Positions 11,649-51,195 of a stretch of 64,000 nt of DNA are shown one piece after another. A program made the position numbers and the translations under genes. Each line of letters opens with the position of its first letter. Position 1 is the stretch's first letter. This DNA comes from Clavelina lepadiformis (Eukaryota; Chordata; Ascidiacea; Aplousobranchia; Clavelinidae), in contig NC_135240.1 in assembly GCF_947623445.1 (NCBI RefSeq), forward strand, positions 22,134,001-22,198,000. Reading direction: 5' to 3'. Under the pieces are notes generated by a model. The model worked only from the letters and a program-made list of their open reading frames with translations. It was not told where the DNA came from and did not search any database.

Positions 11649-14600
11649 ATGGCTCCTACAAGAGTTATATCAAGAGCATCAAGATCTGTTTATGGTTAGT
11701 TGTTTGCTGTTTTTCTGTACTTTTCCCAACAGAAAGTGTGAGTGAAAACAGTTTGTATTGAGTTATGCTATATAATGCATTTAATGCTTGTGTTTATTTG
11801 CATTTTTAGAACCCATAGTTGTGAAGTCTGTGGACCATCTTAATTCAGATAATGCCCCAAAGCATTATACTTCAGACTATGAGGGTGATGATCTTGTTGT
11901 GCGCAGAGGTTTTCCTTTTACACTGTTGCTGACATTGAATCGTGCCATTCTACCAGAGGAAAATCTTGCATTTGAGCTAAGAATGGGTAATTATCCACGG
12001 TAATGCCTTGTTTAAGTCCACCAATCGGATAAGTACCCAAGAAATATGACTCAGCATTAAAGTTTATTAGTTAGGATTATCAAAACAGAAGAGTTGTTTG
12101 TGTTATAGAAAATATTGCAGAAGAAAACAAAAAAAAACTTTTAAACAATGCTCTATCAGTAGCCTAGTTGAGTAATAAGATTGCAAATTGTATCTTAATT
12201 GTAATAAACATTTGTCATTGTCAAATGGAAATAAGATTTGGTGGAATGTGGAACAGCCTATAATAAAAAAATTACCAAGATTTAGTTTGTTATTACAATT
12301 TTTTGGTTTGTGTGCAATGTCATGTCAATAAGCTACAATACTGTGCCATGGGCTTCTGCTTAAACAAAAGCATGATATTTCTCGTGTGTCAAATTGTTAG
12401 ATTCGTCATCGTAGCAATTGTATAACTAGATGAGATAAAAGTTGTACAATTAACATCCTCTTTCTGAGTTTTCTTAACTATCGTTTAGTCTTAGAAACCA
12501 AGAAGCCAAATCGAAAGTGGAAGAAAAATATTATTATTTACGTGTTTTATGTCTTTTTAAAGTCTATAACTTGTTTTAAATGATTGTTTGTGGTTGTATA
12601 TCATCTGAATGACAGTTCATTTGAATGACAGTATTTGAGTGACATAATTATGACATAAATTATTCATTCGAGTGACATAATTAACCCTAACCCTCATCCT
12701 AATCCTAACCCTAACCCTAACCCATTACTGTAGTTTGAACAATACTTACCAATGTGTCACTCAAATGAACTGTCACTCAGTTGATCAACTACCATTGTTT
12801 GTATACCCAAATTACCATATCATAGCTGCATGAATAAAATAACAGTAAGCTATCTATTTTTTAATGCTTAGGATGACATAGGTTTCCTGTTTAATGGTGA
12901 ATGACTTTGTAAGTATGCGTGTCACGTTTATAAGAATACGACTATCTGAGATGAAGCATTCACCTTTTTGCTATTGGCTTGCACAGTTGCACTATTAATA
13001 ATTGCATACCATACCATTACCATAACTGTGTTTTTGTAATATAATATCAATTGTTAAGTGTTTATGGTGTGGCAATACTTTTGCTATTATTCATTACATC
13101 GTGTCACTTGTTTACAGTGTGCACATAAGCACAAACTGTGGAAAATGTTCATGTTTAAATTTGCGTTACATGATGATTAGGTATTATGCACTATATACCA
13201 TTTTGATCACAAATGAAGTGCTTAATTCATTGTAGTTTCAACTGTGACATGGCAGTACAGTGATATAATAAACGGTATTGTGGTTTGCATTACACAGGCT
13301 TGATTTTTAAAACCTACAATGGTTTTTAGTGGCACTTGCATTAACTACACAACAATTAGAACATGTATTTTTGACTCGATCAATCATTATTCAGCCATTA
13401 CTTTGATTTACATTTTGCAGCCTGTGGTCCAATAAGTTTGATCCTTGCCTTAAATACTTGATTTGAATTTCCCCAAACATAAGATTGACCTCGAATACCA
13501 AAGCGAAAATATATTTTTGTCATCTTTTTATTCATTTTAAAAATATTCAATTTTAAAAAATGAGTTGTTTTTATCTATTGTTAAAAATAAGGTGTAATTG
13601 TAAGTATGCCATCTCACTATTTAGACCAGTGGTTCTCAACCTTCTGATCTTGGCGGACCCCTTTTGCTGCTGTCAAAGCAGTGGCGGACCCCTGAAGTTT
13701 AAGCAAACTAAGGGTTCTGAGACTGCACTTAAATGTTTCTTTGCTTAGTTTTACTTAATAGTCTTGGTGCACAACTGCGCTATTCATTCAAAATAACATC
13801 AAACTATGCGGATATTTTTACTTAAAATCACTGTATCCAGCTGTCTTCTCGTATAATCCGCAATCTAGTGCATCACAATAGGCCTTCCCTGCGGGTGATA
13901 AATCTCAATAAGCTTTTGTATTGTCCCATCACAATAGGCAATTAAGCAAATGTTCAAGCCTATTTCAAAAAGCAATGATAAACAGCAAAAATTTTTTAAA
14001 AACTCCTACTTTATGTTGCAAATTTCGAAGTTCTCACGGACCAACTGAAAACGTTTCGCGGACCCCCAGGGGTCCGCGGACCACCGGTTGAGAACCACTG
14101 ATTTAGACGTTTTTATTTTGTGGAGAGTGTATTTTGCAGTGGAAGAAGTTGCTGTAGTATTTATCAGTTAAATAACAACAACATCCTGTAGCATAAAGTA
14201 CGTGTTACTTACCCAGTTTTATTTCCTGAGACGTGAGTGAGTGGATGTTTAAGTCAAACTTTTTTAGCATTTTTATGATTGTAGTAATTGCATGGACACA
14301 TTTTAAAATATACAGTCTAATAACTGCATTAATTATTATTATTATTCTAATATTTACTAATCCTTAAGTTGATTATCTCATGTTTTTGTCCTTCGTTTTC
14401 TGGTTTTAGAGCATGAAAATCACATAATTTGAATTTGCATTCACTTTAAAAAAGGAATTCTATAATTCTTTTCATAGCTTGCAAATGTTCTATATGCATA
14501 TGTTGTATGAGTACGATTGTGGAGCTAGTTGTTTGTAAGTACACAACTTGATTGCTGAATTTTTTTGCTTTTGTATTAGGTGGACGACCAATGGTTCATC

Positions 14601-21309: not shown

Positions 21310-22314
21310 TCAAGGAATGCCATCAGCACGTACACAGCATTTTGTTGGTGGACCACTCCAGTCATACACATATCCATGAAAAGCTATTGTTTCTTTTTCA
21401 CACGGCTTCCCCATAGTTCGTAAATTTCTATCTTTTCTATACATATCCTCAACACTTTGTTTATGGCTAACAACGAAGGCATTTTTGCAACCTCTACTTT
21501 TGTACTCAGTGTCAAAACGTACATCATGAATTCTATTCAGTACAAGTGGAGCCAACCACACGGCAAGAGTTACATCCTCACTCAAATAAAGTTGAAACTG
21601 GTGCCAGTTGGTTGCTATGAACTTTACTAAATTTTGAGATATTATATACCCACCACCACGGGCGTATGGAAGGTAATAGTCACAGAGTTTCCAGTTGGTT
21701 TCCTTCCATGGACCCGATTGTTTAACATGCGATCGGCCATAAAAATAACCCCAGTACAAATTATCCAATTGTTTTTCTGGGTCACTTTTAAGGTCATCCA
21801 AAACCTGATCAAGTCTCACAAAAGTATCATCATCTGCTTTAAGAATGTATTTGTAATTACAATTCTTGTCCACCCATTCCAACATTCGTCCCAGCTTTTC
21901 AGTTAGTTTCTCATACGCATCTTCAAAATCCTCCAGGAGTAATAAATCCTTGTGAGATTCATACTCTTTTCGCACATCATGAGCAACATCACTAGGTAAA
22001 TTTTTCATTCCAATTACAAAATGGTGCAACACTTCCTTGTCATGGGCACTTAAGTGGTCTGATAGCCATGTTTGGCGTATCGCTTTTCGCCTGTCTGAGT
22101 TCCTTGGTCCAGTCATGATTAAAACAACTAATAATATTGGACTGTGGGAAATTTCCTCATGCACGGCATTTTCTGCCACATTTGTTCTTGGAAAAGAGCT
22201 GCTTTCAGGTGCTTGAAATAAAACCTGGGCAATCAAAAGCAGAAATAAAATGCAAAGTACCAACTTGAACAACCGATTCCTGAACAGAGTCTTGACATTT
22301 CTTGTGTTGATCAT
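21310..22314 (-). CDS. B3GALT6: Beta-1,3-galactosyltransferase 6-like (glycosaminoglycan linker galactosyltransferase II)
   Basis: Golgi type II membrane enzyme that adds the second galactose of the proteoglycan linker tetrasaccharide. A single exon encodes 334 aa, similar to human. A short cytosolic tail is followed by one membrane anchor (about residues 15-33, KLVLCILFLLLIAQVLF). The catalytic GT31 domain shows RRKAIRQTW at 75-83, the metal-binding DDD at 161-163 (ILKADDDTF), RGGGYIIS, and the SEDVTLAVWLAP region. The C terminus VYDWSGPPTKCCVR...GIP is characteristic of B3GALT6 rather than other GT31 enzymes, as is the YKSRGC...VVSHKQS stretch. It is the last member of a run of four minus-strand genes, with its ATG 299 bases after the stop of the TBC-like gene. 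Confidence 0.93.
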   Translation of the reverse strand: MINTRNVKTLFRNRLFKLVLCILFLLLIAQVLFQAPESSSFPRTNVAENAVHEEISHSPILLVVLIMTGPRNSDRRKAIRQTWLSDHLSAHDKEVLHHFVIGMKNLPSDVAHDVRKEYESHKDLLLLEDFEDAYEKLTEKLGRMLEWVDKNCNYKYILKADDDTFVRLDQVLDDLKSDPEKQLDNLYWGYFYGRSHVKQSGPWKETNWKLCDYYLPYARGGGYIISQNLVKFIATNWHQFQLYLSEDVTLAVWLAPLVLNRIHDVRFDTEYKSRGCKNAFVVSHKQSVEDMYRKDRNLRTMGKPCEKETIAFHGYVYDWSGPPTKCCVRADGIP

Positions 22315-22613
22315 TGCTACCTTTGTGACTACTTTTCATAATACTCTTCAGGTTTCCTGCTAATTTGATTGAATCGCATATTCTTCAGATAACTTGAACG
22401 ATATTACAGATCAGAAGAAACGAAAATTCTGGTCTGTGCAAACAAATGAACACTGTTGTATTATATAAGAAATAAAATTGGATTCAAGTTACTAAATCAA
22501 CCACTAGGTGTGTACAATAAAAACACTTTTAAGCAAAACCACTGATTTAATTATTACAAAAGTAGTAATTGTACATTATACACACACTCTTCACAGAAAG
22601 CTAAATTAGATCT

Positions 22614-24089
22614 TTAAATTGAGGAAATATTATCCAGTAACTTCCAGGCCTGTGCCATTTCAGGAACATTAACATTAATCATTCCATCTGTCAGCAAACT
22701 GAGAAGTTCTTTTTTCTCTTTGCATTTCCTGATATCCGAAGAAATGCAATGAAACAACACTAAGCAAACCCGTTTAAAACACGTTTGGCTCCAGTTATGA
22801 AGAAAAAGCTGGTCCCATATATACATTGTTGTCATAACATTGGTCACACCCACAAACAGATGAAAAACCCAGCTACGAATAAACGTGACAGGGTGGCTGT
22901 AAGCATCGGAATGAGCCGTATAAAATTTTATTAATGAAGCATAGGATTGAGACTGGTCGTCTTTAAATGGTTGTTCCAGAGTCAATTTGATGTTATCCAC
23001 GTCGGAATCTATGCCTAATGTGCAGAAATGGGTTTTAATGTCTGCATCATTGGAAGAATTTCCATTCAGGTTTGAGTCAATTATTTCAGACCACACAGAT
23101 AAAACAATATCATTTATCATGGGCCACAGTGGTAAACATTCACCAATAATAATATCCAACCACATTGCAATTTCGTAATCTTGTTGTTTACTGTGGATTT
23201 CTTTACTCAGAGCACTATGCAGTGGAAACAGCAAGTAAATATAAAAAGTTTCAAAATTTTTTCGATGTGTGTAAAGAATGTTCAACATCCTACACATATC
23301 CTGCTGGAGAGTAAGATCATCTGAAAATGGTTTCAAACCTGGGGTTGTTTCAAATGTTTCCAAAACAGAAGACTGGATTAAGTGGGAAACTGGTGTTTTA
23401 GTGGGCTGCTTTGATTTAAATTCCAACACGCCTTTCTTAACACTAGCCGCAAATGCTTCCCTCATTTTCAGCTGAGTTAGATCATCATTGAACACAGCTG
23501 CAGCACCAGACCTACCGGTGCCGGGGCTATTTTTTCTTTTGTTGATTAGAAGCAGGCGATAAAGATATCGTCTGAGCGTCTTTGGTAAATAGCGACCTTT
23601 AAGCTTTAGGGTGACGTCACCTAACTTACTAGAATCTTTTTGTAACACTTTAACTACAGATTGGGCCAGTCTATCTGTATGTTGACCATGTTTAAAATTG
23701 GTGGGCTCAACAATTTTTTTGGTTAGATCTACCAGGTTTGAAAAGCATTCTGGTGCATTTGGGCTGTTGGGTAGACTACACTCCGCATCATGAGCAGCTT
23801 TGAAGGTCAATTCTTTGAGTAGAACTTGGATTTCTCTTTCTGTATACTGTCGAGTTGCAATTGATGTATTTGATCTTTTTGCCGACTCATAAAGTCTGTG
23901 TTTCTTGATAAAGTCGTCACTTATAAATTTTGCAACTAAGGCAAGTTGTTCATACGTGAAGCCTTCCAGGGTGATTCTGTATGCCAGCCTTTCAGCTACT
24001 AGATCACGGACTTCGTGCCAAGGGCTACCTGGCAAACTCAGTTCCTCCATGCATTGTTCTAACCAATTATCATTATGATAAGAAGCCAT
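22614..24089 (-). CDS. Uncharacterised TBC-domain-like protein, 491 aa
   Basis: Not recognised as a named orthologue. The 491-aa single-exon protein is largely helical. Residues about 160-480 resemble a TBC (Rab-GAP) fold: RYLPKTLRRYLYRLLL looks like the first TBC helix, YTHRKNFETFYIYLLFPLHSAL like the middle, and MTTMYIWDQLFLHNW like the conserved WD-containing helix. The arginine-finger (IxxDxxR) and glutamine-finger (YxQG) motifs of active GAPs are not visible, so it is probably a pseudo-GAP or a divergent TBC-like scaffold. The N terminus (ERLAYRITLEGFTYEQLALV) has no assignment. The start MASYHNDNWLEQ is the first Met; only about 145 bp separate it from the upstream LYRM9 stop, with acceptor-like CCAACACTAG in between. 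The TBC assignment rests on eye-level likeness and is moderate. Confidence 0.6.
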   Translation of the reverse strand: MASYHNDNWLEQCMEELSLPGSPWHEVRDLVAERLAYRITLEGFTYEQLALVAKFISDDFIKKHRLYESAKRSNTSIATRQYTEREIQVLLKELTFKAAHDAECSLPNSPNAPECFSNLVDLTKKIVEPTNFKHGQHTDRLAQSVVKVLQKDSSKLGDVTLKLKGRYLPKTLRRYLYRLLLINKRKNSPGTGRSGAAAVFNDDLTQLKMREAFAASVKKGVLEFKSKQPTKTPVSHLIQSSVLETFETTPGLKPFSDDLTLQQDMCRMLNILYTHRKNFETFYIYLLFPLHSALSKEIHSKQQDYEIAMWLDIIIGECLPLWPMINDIVLSVWSEIIDSNLNGNSSNDADIKTHFCTLGIDSDVDNIKLTLEQPFKDDQSQSYASLIKFYTAHSDAYSHPVTFIRSWVFHLFVGVTNVMTTMYIWDQLFLHNWSQTCFKRVCLVLFHCISSDIRKCKEKKELLSLLTDGMINVNVPEMAQAWKLLDNISSI

Positions 24090-24234
24090 TTATGGAATGC
24101 TTAAAAGTTGTTTCATCAAAACAGTTGTATCTAGTGTTGGGAATGCAAAAGTTAGTAATAAAATGGAAGAGCAACAAAAATCAAGACACAGGAATGTGAT
24201 TACATCCTGAGAAATGGAAATGCTGCATCGCAAA

Positions 24235-25035
<801 letters not shown>

Positions 25036-25761
25036 TCATTTACAGACAAAAGAAGCCTTTAAATTTCCTAGTGAACCACCAGCTATTTTAAAAGCCCATC
25101 CCATAACAAGAATAAGTGAAACATAAGATACAATTAATGAAACATAAATTGAGTGCGGCAGAGTATTTAACAAAGTTAAGCACGAAACCAGCATATGCAT
25201 TAAAATTACAATGGCAATAGGGGCCAATTTCCTTTTCTTGTAAGCATTAAATATAATCACATTCCAAAAGGTATTTAGTAAAATGAAAGAACTTGCTAAG
25301 AAAGACGATACAAGGAAAAAGTTAGGCGAGGCTCCAGTAATGCCAACATTTCCTGGTCCAATTGAATTTGATAAAACATTTATAACAGAAAATAAACCAC
25401 TCATTAAGCCAAATCCAAAGCCAGAAACATAAGACAATTTGTGGCTTGCTATTGATCTTCGTTCTTCCTCTGACAGAGCATCTTCAAGGCCTGTTTCAGC
25501 TTTATTCATAAGCTTGAATAACGCAAATCTCATCAGCTCTTGAAATATGACGCTGAATACCAATGAAAAGGCTAGTTCTTCTCTCAATGGAACTACAGCC
25601 AACCATAGCAGGGCAGAAAACAGTAACGACAGTAACCAGAAAAATGCACCCACCACAAGAAGAATTATTCGGAGTGGGAACTTCATAACAGTAAACACAA
25701 ATAAGGCCAGTGATGGCCCAAATGCAACAAACATACAACCAAAGAAGACCATTAACGGCAT
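25036..25761 (-). CDS. APH1: Gamma-secretase subunit APH-1
   Basis: Multi-pass membrane scaffold of gamma-secretase, the intramembrane protease that cleaves Notch and APP-type substrates. The 241-aa single exon has about seven hydrophobic segments. It begins MPLMVFFGCMFVAFGPSLAL, matching the family N terminus (VFFGCTFVAFGPA in vertebrates). The glycine zipper GxxxGxxxG that packs TM4 is intact at Gly114, Gly118 and Gly122. The two conserved membrane histidines are present at His189 (ILMHMLVS) and His203 (LPHSIY). The C-terminal WAFKIAGGSLGNLKASFVCK matches the family signature. Slightly shorter than vertebrate APH1A/B (about 250-265 aa). Just upstream of the ATG is AAATCAG, a possible splice or trans-splice acceptor. 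Confidence 0.95.
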   Translation of the reverse strand: MPLMVFFGCMFVAFGPSLALFVFTVMKFPLRIILLVVGAFFWLLSLLFSALLWLAVVPLREELAFSLVFSVIFQELMRFALFKLMNKAETGLEDALSEEERRSIASHKLSYVSGFGFGLMSGLFSVINVLSNSIGPGNVGITGASPNFFLVSSFLASSFILLNTFWNVIIFNAYKKRKLAPIAIVILMHMLVSCLTLLNTLPHSIYVSLIVSYVSLILVMGWAFKIAGGSLGNLKASFVCK

Positions 25762-26142
25762 CTTGGTTATTTCACTGATTTCTTATTAATGATATACTGA
25801 AATAAATATTATAAATAAATTGGTTATAAGTATATCAAAATACTTTGTCTCTTATATTAATTTCATACTTAACATAGGATTAACGGTACCAAAAAGTGTT
25901 AATTGTGTAGATAAATACGGGAATGCCAATTAACTAATTATGATACCCATAAGACAGTAGCCAAATGGTCGAGTAAGAGGGGTGGCCGCGTTTGTGGATT
26001 TCACACCAGAGCAGGACTTCACCATTATAGATGAGACCTTAGTATAGCACGTATGCATTAAGCATTATGTTGTTTCAAAGAAATCACAACATGATAGTTT
26101 TGAAACACACGTAATACAGTAATAAGAGCAATGATACATACT

Positions 26143-35171: not shown

Positions 35172-38100
35172 TCATTTTTCAAGAAAAAGGTTAAGCCATT
35201 TTTGCATTCTGCCCCTCCATTCGAAACTTACTCCTTCAAGATCGAGAGCCTGCTTACATCTTGTTATTGCCCTAGCAATTTCTGCTGGTCTTGAATCTTT
35301 GCATTTTATGCATTCATTTACAGCCATAGCGTAATTATTAACAGCCCAAGCAAAAGAATTTGGTCGCCAATCTCGCAGGTCAGCCATATTATTCGAATCT
35401 GAATGAAATGCCATTTTATATGTAACAAAGGCATCAGTAAAATATCCACAAGCAGAAAAAAACTTTGCAGCTTGAATCATGCAGTGGGAAGCCATATCTA
35501 GAGAAGAATTTTCTTCGGCAAGTTTTTGCAATTTCTTACACTCTTCATATGCAGTTGGAGGGAGATCGTTTGGAGTTAAATGCTTCAGCAGTTTTGTATT
35601 GGCCTTGACAATATACTTATAAGCATTTAAGTTGGTATAAGCAGTGCCTTCAACTCTTCTGAATGTGCAATGCTCATAAAATGGGCCTCTTACTTCGAGC
35701 AAATCCTTGCTTTGCCTATGAGCTTCTTTTAAGCGTTGGTTTCTTGACTCCACATTCTCACCTGGTCGATTTTGTAAAAGCCTTGGTACCACTGCATTTG
35801 CAATGGCAATGTATTCATATATTATCCCAATGTTTGATTGTGTTTTCTCTCTTACAGCTTTACACAAATGATGAGTAACTTGTGTATAGTACTCGCACAG
35901 CTCCTGTTGCTCAAGCGACATTTTGTCCTGAACATAAAGGACTTGCCGACCATATGTGTGAAGAATGCTGGCCAAGCGTTCGACGAAGAAAATTTGCCTC
36001 AATTCTTTCTGCTCCAGAAGATTTGCGGTCTTTCTTAAAGATTTTAAAATGGCGTCATCACAAGGGAGTTTATGCGCAATCATTTCTTCGACACTTTTGA
36101 GATCTGCTGAAGCCTCCTTCCTAGAGATTTTTAACGTCTTCATGGAATTTAAAATAAAATGTTCCAGATTCATTTTGTTGAAGACAAATGAAACTTTCAT
36201 GTAATTTTCAAGGTACTCAGCCTTTACATTAGATCCAGCATCCATGCAGGGTTTAGCAAGCTCCTTTGCATGCTTTTCAGCTGAAATCTGCTTTTCAAGA
36301 TTAACTGAAGAGTTTCTATTGAACCACAAGAAACGATTTTTTGAAAAAGCCACTACAATATTCAAAATACTACTTGCTGCAGACAGAAGGACTTCCAACG
36401 CTGCAGAAATGTCAGTATGAATTCTTCCTTGGATTAAAGCTTGCCCAAGTAGCTCACGTATTCGGCAAGTGAGCATGATCATCTTAAAATTATTTTCATC
36501 CATTTTATCTGTATTGCCAGTGACGTCTAAATATTCCGGGAACTTTTCTGTTAATTTATTAAAATGTGGCCTCAAATAAGCCAGCTTAATGTCAGAACTT
36601 CTTTCGGTGTTATCTTTACTTATCATACTAGCTATAGCTTCCAGAGCAATAACAAAATACGATGACATTTCTTTTTTCTCATTCTCTTTCCAAATTGCAT
36701 CAAATAAATGATCTTCTATTGTGATAGCACCATTGGGATAATTGAGAGGTTGCCTATCTTCAAACTGAAACAGCTCTTGTAATCTATATACAACTTCAGA
36801 CGCTTCAAGCTTGTTCCTTTCATAGTTTTCTTTTGGCTTTAGATCTTTGGCATCCTTCCTTATTTGTTGGCATATCTTTCCAATATACAGAAAAGGGATG
36901 TTTTCATGATGAACAAAGTAGAGAACCTTCATGATAGACTGGCAAAGCTGATGTGTTTCAGAAAGCTTGTGTATGACCTGGTTGCCTGCTTCATCAATTT
37001 CATCTGCAGCAGAGGAGATTCCACTAAAAGAACGAAGGTAGATTTTGCTTTTTTCTTGTTTCATTGAGTTTGCAAACTGTTGGAATGTGATCTTGCGTGT
37101 TTTACAGTAAGTCATAGCCAGCAACAGATAACCTGGTCTGCAATTAAAGTGGTTTATCACATAGTTTGCACCTTCCTCAGTGAAAAGTGAGCTATTGGCG
37201 GTTAGTGCATCATCTGCAATATACCTGTAGCACAGAACTGGAGTAGTTTTGATGTCCTTTAAGTAATTATATGCTTCTTGTTCTGTAAATCCAGTCACTC
37301 TATGCAGAACAAACTTTCCCCTACCATAGATTTCGTTTTCATTGTAAAGATATTGCCTATCACCCGCCACAACAATACACTGAATTTGAGCAGATTTTTG
37401 CTCTAATTCTAGAATTGCTTCTGTCATTTCTCGTATCAGTGGTTTATCATTGTCACTGGCATTATCAAAGCCAAAAATTGCGGATATGCCCTTTTCATGC
37501 ATCAATTGGATGAGTTTTTTAACATAAATCTTTTTTCTGTCATCATTAAACAGATTTTGTAGCTCTTCTTGTGTAATGAGATTGGCATCTTGCAACTGGG
37601 TTAAAAGGCATTGCAGTTCTTCCAAAACTACTGACTCCGTTTTCTTACAGTTAATTTGAAATATAACTAAAGACTTGGTTGTAGCTTTTTGATCTAGAAG
37701 CTTGTGCAACAAAACAGTTTTTCCACATAATTTACCACCATGAAGCTGCAGTACAAAATACTTCTGTAATTTATTTTTGCACAGTTGGAACTCTTTTGTA
37801 TCCTGCAATTTTAAAAGTGAAGATATTAATATACAAATGATAATTCTACCTTAACTAACTTTATGTTATAACTAAATCAGTTAATATTATTGTTCTGTGC
37901 TGGGAAAGAAAGGTTCTTTGTTATAACACTTTGCAAGTGGGTTTAAAAATATAAATATAGTACTGGACTGCAAAAGTATTTGGGTATGTACCATGACATC
38001 AACTGGCAACTTGTCATATTTCCAGACATTCTTCTCTCTGGCAGCAGGCATTTTGTTTTTTATTTCACCACCCTCCGTGTATTGCAAACAGCTTTCTGAC

Positions 38101-47654: not shown

Positions 47655-48527
47655 TTGATCGCCTCAAAAACGTCAAAATTCAGAATAGTAGACTATAGAC
47701 GATGTATTGCGTAGAACGCACACTACCTTTGTGACCGTGTCACAAGTAGAATGGGTTATTTGGTCGGCATGGTCAGTGCCTTCTGGCAGCTGACCTTGAC
47801 GTACAAACGAACCACTGAGGAAACATGTCAATAATGAGCAAAAACCACAATTAATGACGTCATCCATAAATTTAGATTTCCCTGTAGCGCCAACTGCCAC
47901 CACAATTCCACAAAGTAAACTTGTCCTATCAAATAGATACGACCTATCTGTTATGGTTAGCGTGGTGTGAGAAGGAAAATCTGAAGACCCGTTAAGTATA
48001 AGCTTTCCTTACGTTAGATATTTTGTTTTATGGGATGTACTTTGTTATATGTGGTGAGTTTTAGGGAGGAGGTACCGCATTATAAATAAATAGCCTACTG
48101 TATTTTGAAACTTTGTCTAACATAGCGAAAGCGCTAGCAAACGATTCTGATTTGTTACTCGGCGGCGCCAGCTTATACTGTCGAGAGTGGATATTGCAAT
48201 GTTAATTAATATTGTATGTTTTATTTATATAAAGCCATTAAACGTGATAGTTAAAAAACTTACTCCTGTTCCGTGGTTCTGCTGATTTTTGAATTCGCGT
48301 AAAACTACAAAGAACTAAATGAAAAATGCTTCATTCGAAAAATTCATGTGCAAACAATCTTGTTAACCGGGGTTCGAGTTGCGAGGAATCATCGTAAGGT
48401 TTAAGTCGTGGAAATGCATTTCGCAGTTTGAGGATAAATTTCCCATAACACAATAGAGTATAGACCATTTTGTGATAAGTCAACACAATTGTTACGTAGG
48501 ATTCGCTTAATACATAACAACGTTATA
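47655..48527. other. Intergenic DNA
   Basis: No gene or recognised repeat in this interval. Confidence 0.4.
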
Positions 48528-48689
48528 CAGTACTTCCTCTATTATCCGTCCCTCGTTTAACCGGCATTCGATTATCCGGCCGAGTGATCAATGACTTTGG
48601 GAGGTCGTTTTTCTTCGCATGATTGCACTTGCAACTATCATATGCGTGAGATTACTCTGGTTTTTATTTTTCAATTGACGTTGAACCGC

Positions 48690-48806
48690 CGCCGTAGCTA
48701 CTACCGATTGAATGGTTTAGTGAGGTCCTCCGATTGGACCCGGAGCGGCTGGCAACGGCCGAACCGGTGTCCGAAAAGACGATCTAACTTGATCATTTAG
48801 AGAAAC

Positions 48807-48855
<49 letters not shown>
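48690..48855 (+). rRNA. 18S rRNA, 3'-terminal fragment (inside a transposon)
   Basis: Matches the last ~165 nt of eukaryotic 18S: CTACTACCGATTGAATGG, then AAAGTCGTAACAAGGTTTCC, ending GCGGAAGGATCATTA at 48855. The stretch between is close to a normal chordate sequence. The rest of 18S is absent. Not expected to be transcribed by Pol I here. Confidence 0.95.
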
Positions 48856-49081
48856 TCGAAACGAACGGAGGCTCCCGCTCGAGCTGCGGCGGCGTCGCCG
48901 GGAAACCGGCCGCCTCTCGCGCTTGTCGAGGTCAAGACGCGCCCGTTGAGGCGCTCGACAAGGCACAAGTCTTTCACGGGCGTCGAGTACCCCCGCAGTT
49001 TCAAGTGACGGTCGTCAGATCGTCCGCTCGGCGCTCACATTCAAACCTGTGACTGCTTCGTAGAAGCTGAAACGATAAACG
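48856..49081 (+). other. ITS1 spacer
   Basis: GC-rich, unstructured-looking sequence between the 18S end and 5.8S; length about 225 bp, short for a metazoan but in keeping with a compact genome. Confidence 0.85.
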
Positions 49082-49240
49082 ATGATGGCTCTTGGCGGTG
49101 GATCACTCGGCTTGCGAGTCGATGAAGGACGCAGCTAGCTGCGTGAATTAGTGTGAATTGCAGGACACATTGAGCATCGACGTTCTGAACGCGAATTGCG
49201 GCCTCGGGTTAATCCCGGGACCACGCCCGCCTCAGGGTCG
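49082..49240 (+). rRNA. 5.8S rRNA, apparently complete (inside a transposon)
   Basis: Contains the conserved blocks CTTGGCGGTGGATCACTCGG, GTCGATGAAGGACGCAGC, AATTGCAGGACACATTGAGC and the CCCGGGACCACGCCCG region near the end. Ends were placed by comparison with other animals and are good to a few bases. It looks undecayed. Confidence 0.92.
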
Positions 49241-49451
49241 TCTGAAAAGCAATCCCGGCGCGCCCGTCGCCCGGGCGAATGCGGAGTCGGACGGAGACCT
49301 GTGTCTCCGCCGTCCCGTCGAAGTCAGCAAGGGTCCGGCACGCGATCGGAGAGCGCGGCGGCGGCGGATCGACCTCGAAGAGGTGTCCTCGTTTCGCCAA
49401 GTCGCCGCGAACGTCGTCGATCCTCGGCACGTGTGACGTCTCTTACATTTC
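49241..49451 (+). other. ITS2 spacer
   Basis: GC-rich spacer of about 210 bp between 5.8S and 28S. Long open frames across this region are by-products of the GC content, not genes. Confidence 0.85.
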
Positions 49452-49472
49452 GGCCTGAGGTCGGACGAGACT

Positions 49473-49519
<47 letters not shown>

Positions 49520-49720
49520 GAGAATTCCCTCAGTAACGGCGAGTGAAGCGGGATGAGCCCATCGCCGAATCCGGTCGCTTTTGGAGCGCTCCGGAATTGT
49601 GGCATATAGAATTCGTCTTGCGCGCGTCGCGGGTCGCCCGCGTCCTTCTGATCGATCTGATCTTCTGATCGTCCCATAGCGGGTGTCAGGCCCATGGCGG
49701 CGATTTGCGTGCGTGCTCGG
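49452..49720 (+). rRNA. 28S rRNA, 5'-terminal fragment (inside a transposon)
   Basis: Starts near GCCTGAGGTCGGACGAGACT and includes ACCCGCTGAATTTAAGCATA, GCGGAGGAAAAGAAACTAAC and CCCTCAGTAACGGCGAGTGA. Homology runs through the D1 region (CGCGTCCTTCTGATCG) and stops about 49720, where AT-rich transposon sequence resumes. A short duplication of TCTGATC occurs near 49648-49670. Confidence 0.93.
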
Positions 49721-49813
49721 TAAAAATACAAATTCAATTATCCGTTTTTTTGCTTATCCGGTCAGATTTTTGAAAATATTGGCCCAACTTGACCGGATAA
49801 TCGAGGAAGTACG

Positions 49814-51195
49814 TACTATATAACAATAATAACACTCGATCGAAAGCGGGTAGTGTTCACTAGAAATTCAAAATTTTGTTCCGTAATTTATATACAGTAC
49901 TAAAATACCAGTTCTCGAGCACCTCTGCTGAGGCAATCTGGTAGTTGGTGCCAGAATTACGAATTTGCATTTTGTACTCAAATGTTTTCATAAACAATGC
50001 TACTTGTACTCATAATGCAAAATCAGTACAGCTCGGGAAATATCTATTTTTAGTAGGCTACGTCTTCGAATTATATACTGTATTTATGTTGATTATTCTG
50101 TTAAGATTTGATTTTATTTAACTTGACACCAATATTTTTCGGTGAAGTTACATGCCCAGCTTGGAAATTCTTTAAATTATCAGCTGAGGCGTTGTCTCAG
50201 TATTATTCTCAAATCTCAGTATTATTCACCAAATTGTTGCCAAAAAGAATGCAAGATTTTACAACGTTGAGCCAATGTGTCTCCAAGCCTAAGCGATGAT
50301 ATGCACTTAACTTATTTCGGTAATGTTAGCGCAAAAAGGCACACAGAAATTTGCACGAGTTAAACAATAGGTGACCATCTGAGGTTGTCTCAAGGAGCGT
50401 TCATATTTTCCAGAGTGACGATTTCACTGCAAGTAGGTCACGCAGCCCGCAGTTAAAGATAGGCGGTTAAGTCACATGATGTTGCAAAGCTCTTGAGGAC
50501 GGTAGAACAGGGACGTTATTCAGAGGTGATCTCGTTGTAACAAGATCTACCTCGGGCAGCCAAGTTGATCATACTTAACCTTTGTCTGCTGAGATCAATT
50601 ATATTATGCAACAGGGGTGAAATTTCACAAATCGCGAAATCAGGGTAAATAGAGAACCTACACATTTTGACAACGCATTGGTTACGCATAGAAAACAGTA
50701 CCTTTTAAAGGCTGAAGGGGCATACTTTTTGAACATCTGTTAGAGTTACGGTGTAAGCCTGTCATAGACCAGGTACTATTATGGTTTGCAAAACAATTGC
50801 AAAAATTAGTTCATTTATACTGTAGTTAAATCCCAAAGGTAACTCAGGAGTTATTATGAACTACTGTATGCTCATTATATATACATCCTTTGACACGCTT
50901 TCAAAGTTATGGCCTTTCCCTGCAATTACATAACAGCTGAGAGAACCTCTTATGTCTTTCATTCATTAAGTCACAGTTGGGATGGTAGCTGTAATAAATA
51001 GATTGGAAGCCAAAAACTTGTACCAGTTAGAAAATTCGATGCTCTTTCACATGCTTAAATAGTTGTATTGTAATATGGAACCGAACATAGCACTAATATG
51101 TTTCAGGTAACTAAGTTTTCACAATTCAAAGCAAGATGGTGTGAAACATGATTACAAAGCAGTGGCTTTTAACTAAAGGCAGGATATCCCTTTTC
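49814..51195. other. Intergenic DNA downstream of GATD3
   Basis: AT-rich; no gene or repeat recognised. The GATD3 3' UTR presumably lies at its right side. Confidence 0.4.

Follow-up and report, generated by a model that had tools for sequence, protein, structure and literature searches.

The element at positions 48528 to 49813 of the window (the whole 64,000-nt stretch of Clavelina lepadiformis DNA that was analysed) is, with a probability of about 0.93, a non-autonomous pogo-like transposon whose internal region was replaced once by ribosomal DNA (rDNA) of the host, and which was then amplified at TA sites. In the following, coordinates without a contig prefix refer to the window.

Structure of the rDNA-bearing element

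The element starts with CAGTACTTCCTC directly after a TA (48526–48527). Its right end lies at 49813 and is followed by the second TA of the target-site duplication (49814–49815), which comes one base early due to a missing base: the right end reads GTACG in the window copy and GTACTG in the other copies with two ends. The terminal inverted repeats (TIRs, CAGTACTTCCTC(G/T)ATTATCCG) have arms of 19 nt with 95% complementarity. At up to three mismatches the TIR pattern had two matches in the window (the right end being the three-mismatch one), compared to a mean of 0.01 in shuffled sequence, and chance TIRs are thereby ruled out. The left transposon arm with its TIR spans 151 bp (48528–48678, plus strand) and is 98.0–98.7% identical to the left ends of the relatives L038–L040. 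It is followed by a junction of about 10–16 nt of scrambled or filler sequence (CGTTGAACCGCCGCCG, 48679–48694, plus strand).

Rfam detected all rDNA parts on the plus strand and in natural order. The 3′ end of the 18S rRNA (48695–48855; RF01960, 103.4 bits) also matches the native rDNA copy on contig C7, and the 5.8S rRNA (49087–49240; RF00002, 121 bits) covers model positions 1–154. The 5′ end of the 28S rRNA (49451–49719; RF02543, 94.4 bits) has a start that was extrapolated from the model, of which position 24 corresponds to 49474; the Rfam alignment for 28S extends beyond the element to 49860, and the excess tail was taken as spurious. ITS1 (48856–49086, plus strand) was aligned to native ITS1. 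ITS2 occupies 49241–49450 (plus strand), and the changes private to the window copy include a 10-bp deletion in ITS2 at about 49405. The right arm with its TIR comprises 94 bp (49720–49813, plus strand), beginning where CTCG is joined to GTAAAAATAC, and is 95.7–97.9% identical to the right ends of transposase-bearing relatives. The window element itself encodes no transposase.

A preliminary description of this DNA had proposed TA-flanked inverted ends that enclose naturally ordered rDNA, and the TIR comparison and Rfam bear this out to the exact base. It also spoke of an intact 5.8S gene. This holds for the full length of the gene but not in the strict sense, as one substitution distinguishes it from the native sequence (C to T at 49113).

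Elsewhere in the window, seven TAACCC repeats (TTAGGG type) are located at 12682–12723, inside the contig. Long minus-strand frames are found at 21310–25782 and 35172–37850, with matches to Galactosyl_T and Aph-1 and, in one frame and below the cut-off, to RabGAP-TBC; an 892-aa minus-strand frame has a match to NPHP3_N below the cut-off. No tRNA was found in the window by ARAGORN with the bacterial code.

The element belongs to a dispersed family

Copies were searched for in the assembly of 209 Mb in 95 contigs. The search with the whole element revealed at least 20 matches over the full length, together with several that carry deletions, among the best 40 of 181 candidates. The left junction between element and rDNA is common to at least 26 loci on eight contigs (C1–C7 and C9; best 40 of 78 candidates): the 161-base probe aligned over its whole length at 25 loci, and over 149 bases at C3:14217497. 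A strict pattern of 39 nt for this junction was found at 24 places with up to two mismatches, compared to none for the reversed control; L010, with two bases inserted at this junction, and L016 escape it. The right-junction probe identified at least 24 rDNA-bearing loci among the best 40 of 109 candidates. Both transposon ends are present at 24 loci, flanked by TA, and 20 of these 24 copies have a length of about 1.26–1.30 kb.

The 24 copies differ by 0.23–2.58% (mean 0.96%) from their own majority sequence, and by 1.8% on average from each other (276 pairs). The mutation rate of insects is near 3e-9 per site per generation. At this rate the divergence corresponds to an order of 3 million generations, which is only a guide.

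Two further rearrangements were observed among the copies. In L028 (C1:2641517–2643340) the 18S part carries an insertion of 537 bp with an apparent 8-bp target duplication (positions 268–275 of the query are repeated), which is probably a nested younger element. At C1:3174547–3175174 and C1:3414226–3414853 we found two deleted copies of 628 bp with the same form and the same flanks. They have opposite orientations and a distance of about 240 kb, and seem to result from an inverted segmental duplication.

Relatives with the same ends encode a pogo-type transposase

L038–L040 have the same arms (element positions 1–151 and 1193–1285) with transposase sequence between them. Pfam domains above the cut-off were DDE_1 and HTH_Tnp_Tc5 in the frame of L038, and DDE_1, HTH_Tnp_Tc5 and CENP-B_N in the frame of L039. 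In all three of these relatives, which share the whole left arm of 151 bp, the transposase frames are truncated or broken. Longer copies also occur in the genome, including matches free of stop codons in frames of 556–557 codons at C3:6290943, C3:17560017 and C1:13062347. The first of these (L057) has both TIRs and only 78 bases of the left arm in common with the window element. As the three of these longer relatives that were read (L057–L059) share only 57–78 bp of this arm, we infer rather than observe cross-mobilisation by copies with long uninterrupted frames.

The catalytic residues of the relatives' transposase have the spacing DD34D, and a PDB search with the transposase gave the DNA-binding part of CENP-B (1hlv) as the sole match at E 0.001. 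The right-arm pattern occurs at 54 places in the genome (control: 0), and 24 of the 54 are rDNA-bearing copies. Judged from its sequence, the window element can be placed with the pogo-like transposons on account of its TA sites and TIRs, the CENP-B-type helix-turn-helix and DDE_1 domains of its relatives, and DD34D. The terminal repeats, which had to be related to some transposon family for the preliminary view to hold, are thus those of a family whose transposase is of the pogo type. The assignment "Tigger/pogo-like" made beforehand stands in its pogo-like part, while "Tigger" was a loose name: according to the accessible text of PMC7325037, Tigger elements are polyphyletic, and "pogo-like" is therefore the better term.

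The junctions suggest capture during gap repair

At the left junction the sequence of the parent stops at CAATTGA. The following 10–16 nt or so fit neither the parent nor the native rDNA cleanly, and native 18S sequence is reached by about 48695. The capture step has left weak traces: a 9-mer within this filler (CGTTGAACC) is also present about 118 nt upstream in native 18S, a match that could be due to chance.

Two types of right junction were observed. The window type is found in 20 of the 24 copies; within this group, L023 has an 8-base deletion and further changes at the junction, and L027 has one changed base. In the other four copies (L022, L026, L029 and L030), which form one group in the tree, CATGGCG is joined to TAATGATGTAAAAATAC. 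Compared to the window type, the parent arm is about 6 bases longer in these copies and 28S about 20 bases shorter, and neither type can therefore be a simple deletion of the other. The two types show later remodelling at the border of 28S and arm: either the founder was longer in both parts, or a parent copy served as the template for a repair that rewrote the border.

We propose that the internal transposase region of a parent element was exchanged, once, for about 1.03 kb of host rDNA, from the 3′ end of 18S through ITS1, 5.8S and ITS2 to the 5′ end of 28S. The exchange most likely took place by interrupted repair of the gap left by excision of the element, during which copying would have moved into rDNA by template switching. 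The missing middle of the parent, the filler at the left junction and the types of right border all fit such a course of events. The rDNA-bearing element was then amplified by insertion at TA sites, with transposase presumably provided in trans by relatives that have these ends.

Capture may also have occurred by macro-transposition, in which a parent in or near the rDNA array, as one of two neighbouring elements or together with a cryptic end, mobilised the intervening rDNA and later suffered internal deletions. A continuous cargo in natural order is what this route would give, and the remodelling at the border of 28S and arm that the two right junctions indicate could represent such later changes. 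However, both arms come from a single element, of which they retain 151 bp at the left end and about 94 bp at the right, and the left junction contains scrambled bases. Furthermore, whole elements would be carried along by macro-transposition, or further deletions would be needed. We therefore regard this route as rather unlikely and favour interrupted gap repair.

The cargo is derived from host rDNA

Native rDNA at C7:2650311–2651099 matches positions 162–935 of the element at 96.4%. Only 9 differences in 776 positions (between 48697 and 49462) separate it from the majority sequence of the copies, and a horizontal origin of the cargo was rejected on this ground. At four sites (48993, 49038 and 49040 in ITS1, and 49259) every one of the 23 copies with data has the same sequence, which is not the native one, and a 3-bp deletion at 49050, also in ITS1, is present in 23 of the 24 copies, L032 being deleted there. 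These shared differences point to one capture followed by amplification, so that a single capture most likely founded the family. The founder marks rest on one native ITS copy, itself deleted in 28S, and may thus in part be variation within native rDNA. For instance, the 18S of L035, which belongs to the second element described below, likewise has the A at 48762.

The native copy (C7:2643343–2651099; L031 and L055) is the sole assembled native ITS copy that was read. It adjoins runs of N, and the end of its ITS2 is joined to AAGTACCGTGAGG, with 28S deleted. A search with the 5′ part of 28S did not find the native 28S 5′ end: all of its 28 matches lie in copies of the element.

With regard to exchange with the native array, comparison of substitutions with the one native ITS copy revealed only single-site matches to the native sequence, at 49015 (L016) and 49016 (L030). 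L026 and L010, which are on separate branches of the tree, have a 7-bp deletion in ITS2 at about 49261 in common, due either to recurrent slippage or to exchange between copies.

A second, unrelated transposon carries a different rDNA piece

Three loci, L035 (C3:10160872), L036 (C6:17128308) and L037 (C1:3055295), carry 18S and 35 bp of ITS1 within another element with long TIRs. In all three the rDNA gives way to non-rDNA sequence at an identical base (three matches for the junction pattern, none for the control). The complete SSU model of Rfam (1–1831) fits L035 and L036, and model positions 1117–1823 fit L037. The inverted repeats of this element have a length of about 380 bp and an identity of about 90%, and start with TAGTCCAGTCAAAATAGGGC. 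The end sequence forms nearby inverted pairs at seven places and occurs singly at one. Pfam gave nothing above the cut-off for five frames of this element and its surroundings. The second element is a different, unrelated transposon with a different piece of rDNA.

It is conceivable that rDNA cargo helps an element, either because silencing RNAs against it would hit host pre-rRNA, or because homology draws the element to the nucleolus and to rDNA arrays, where it can recombine; for DNA transposons of this lineage, capture of rDNA would then be recurrent and favoured. The observations that 24 of 54 right arms bear one and the same cargo and that a second element carries 18S are consistent with this reading, which we nevertheless consider improbable.

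The 5.8S gene varies like its surroundings

The 5.8S sequence is ungapped in 19 of the 24 copies: in six it is identical to the native one, and in 13 more it carries 1–4 substitutions. One might take this as a sign that the element carries 5.8S as a selected and expressed gene. However, the remaining five copies have lost 9–18 nt of 5.8S, and the number of segregating sites per position among 23 copies (L032 left out) is 0.121 in 5.8S, compared to 0.119 in the left arm. The values for ITS1, ITS2 and 28S are 0.157, 0.162 and 0.149; 18S (0.087) and the right arm (0.074) have lower values, based on small counts. Variation per site in 5.8S was thus not clearly below that of the surroundings among these 23 copies, and selection on 5.8S was not seen. 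Moreover, the cargo begins inside 18S and therefore lacks the intergenic spacer (IGS), in which the Pol I promoter is located. A selected 5.8S gene is thus very improbable, and expression of 5.8S from the copies, considered possible in the preliminary description, finds no support in this pattern of variation. Most likely the cargo is a neutral passenger.

Insertion sites and empty sites

A TA is present on the right of all 24 copies with two ends (read one base earlier for the window copy), and a script found TA on the left of 23. The 24th is L016, for which the alignment is shifted by one base; by eye, TA is followed by CAAGTAC. The flanks differ between loci with one exception: L033 and L034, the remaining two of the 26 left-junction loci, lack the right end and have both flanks in common, and so have the appearance of a single insertion that lies in duplicated DNA.

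The flanks of all 24 copies were also compared with the DNA of the retrieved loci. The joined flanks of L027 match an uninterrupted stretch beside L022 (3517–3817) at 293 of 301 positions across a single TA. For L019 the joined flanks correspond to DNA near L020, with 212 of 253 positions matching and once more one TA. Both are paralogous empty sites. A further spanning match, of L017 to itself (82%), was left out of this evidence.

The sign of mobilisation that had been called for, namely several copies with both junctions in common at separate TA sites, is present, and none of the findings named in advance as speaking against a transposon (a junction unique to this locus, terminal repeats unrelated to a transposon family, an assembly join) was made. 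The view that a DNA transposon captured rDNA, as opposed to a stray rDNA insertion, is strongly supported by one left junction at 26 loci with TA on both sides at 24. The deleted, native-like rDNA copy beside N runs on C7 does demonstrate rDNA outside intact units; that each copy arose from a stray fragment, inserted at a break or from an rDNA circle, beside an unrelated transposon end can nevertheless be dismissed in view of this common junction at unrelated sites and of two empty sites that lack arms and rDNA together. An artefact of assembly or scaffolding that joined rDNA reads to a transposon might be suspected as rDNA is poorly assembled, with N runs next to the C7 copy as well as within L041 and L042, but has practically no probability either, since the same junction occurs in dispersed copies with private mutations and differing flanks.

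Implications for rDNA analysis

According to our data, a mobile element can transport parts of ribosomal genes, and a concrete vehicle is now seen at base resolution: a cut-and-paste transposon with 5.8S/ITS cargo at at least 26 loci, together with a second element that carries 18S at three. Sites for an ITS1 primer (0–2 mismatches) and an ITS4-like primer (2–3 mismatches) are both present at 21 of the 26 loci, and ITS barcoding may therefore amplify copies of the element. Misleading results are also conceivable for coverage-based rDNA counts and for FISH with probes against ITS or 18S. Since all 28 matches to the 5′ part of 28S are element copies, mobile pseudogenes may be labelled as rRNA genes when this assembly is annotated automatically. 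What is new here is a pogo-like, Pack-TYPE-like transposon with ribosomal cargo; the surprise lies mainly in this cargo, in the number of copies and in a second such case within one genome.

Comparison with known systems

With regard to MITEs, which are short non-coding elements with the ends of an autonomous relative, the ends of the family are common to transposase-bearing relatives, but the prevailing length of about 1.26–1.30 kb is long for a MITE. SINEs derived from rRNA have no TIRs but an A-rich tail and target duplications of variable length; TIRs of 19 nt and TA duplications rule out such an origin. Non-autonomous pogo derivatives usually are internal deletions of the parent, whereas this family carries foreign cargo. 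The TA site, the TIRs, and the CENP-B-type DNA-binding and DDE_1 domains of the relatives are nevertheless as in the pogo-like/Tigger elements characterised in the available part of PMC7325037.

The nearest precedents are Pack-TYPE elements and the Pokey transposon. Like Pack-TYPE elements and Pack-MULEs, the family consists of non-autonomous TIR elements that hold a host fragment between their ends and were multiplied by transposition, and the donor type of this fragment is still present in the genome. In the sections available, PMC8903248 and PMC13317346 describe Pack-TYPE elements for coding DNA in plants, and the terms rRNA and rDNA do not occur in the main texts of these two papers. As its cargo is rDNA and not protein-coding, the family is not Pack-TYPE in the narrow sense, although it operates in the manner of such elements. 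For animals, the accessible part of PMC2572040 (2008) called transduplication of protein-coding genes unknown before Turmoil-1 of C. elegans.

Pokey, a piggyBac element of Daphnia, is likewise a DNA transposon that bears rDNA-derived sequence. As far as the accessible text of PMC3849761 goes, it inserts at TTAA and targets 28S, and it carries IGS repeats of about 200 bp and a piece of ITS2 of about 50 bp in its 5′ non-coding region, beside the transposase; these pieces evolve in concert with the array, and Pokey MITEs lack them. In contrast, the family described here is pogo-like, with a TA site and relatives of the DDE_1/CENP-B type. Its whole internal region is rDNA, including mature 18S and 28S parts and the entire 5.8S, and its copies keep their own founder marks.

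In the open-access literature, judged mostly by titles and the beginnings of abstracts, we found no report of a DNA transposon with an 18S-ITS-5.8S-ITS-28S segment. The part of PMC10257491 that deals with the mobility of rDNA states that its mechanisms have not been studied in detail, and favours spread mediated by satellites over mobile elements for Lepidoptera. The same source cites the grasshopper Abracris flavolineata (Ferretti et al. 2019), in which components of rDNA move independently. As in our case, single parts of the major rDNA unit are found at new chromosomal places in this species. The evidence from A. flavolineata is chromosomal and genomic, and the account in the available part of PMC10257491 does not name a vehicle, whereas the vehicle here is a sequenced transposon.
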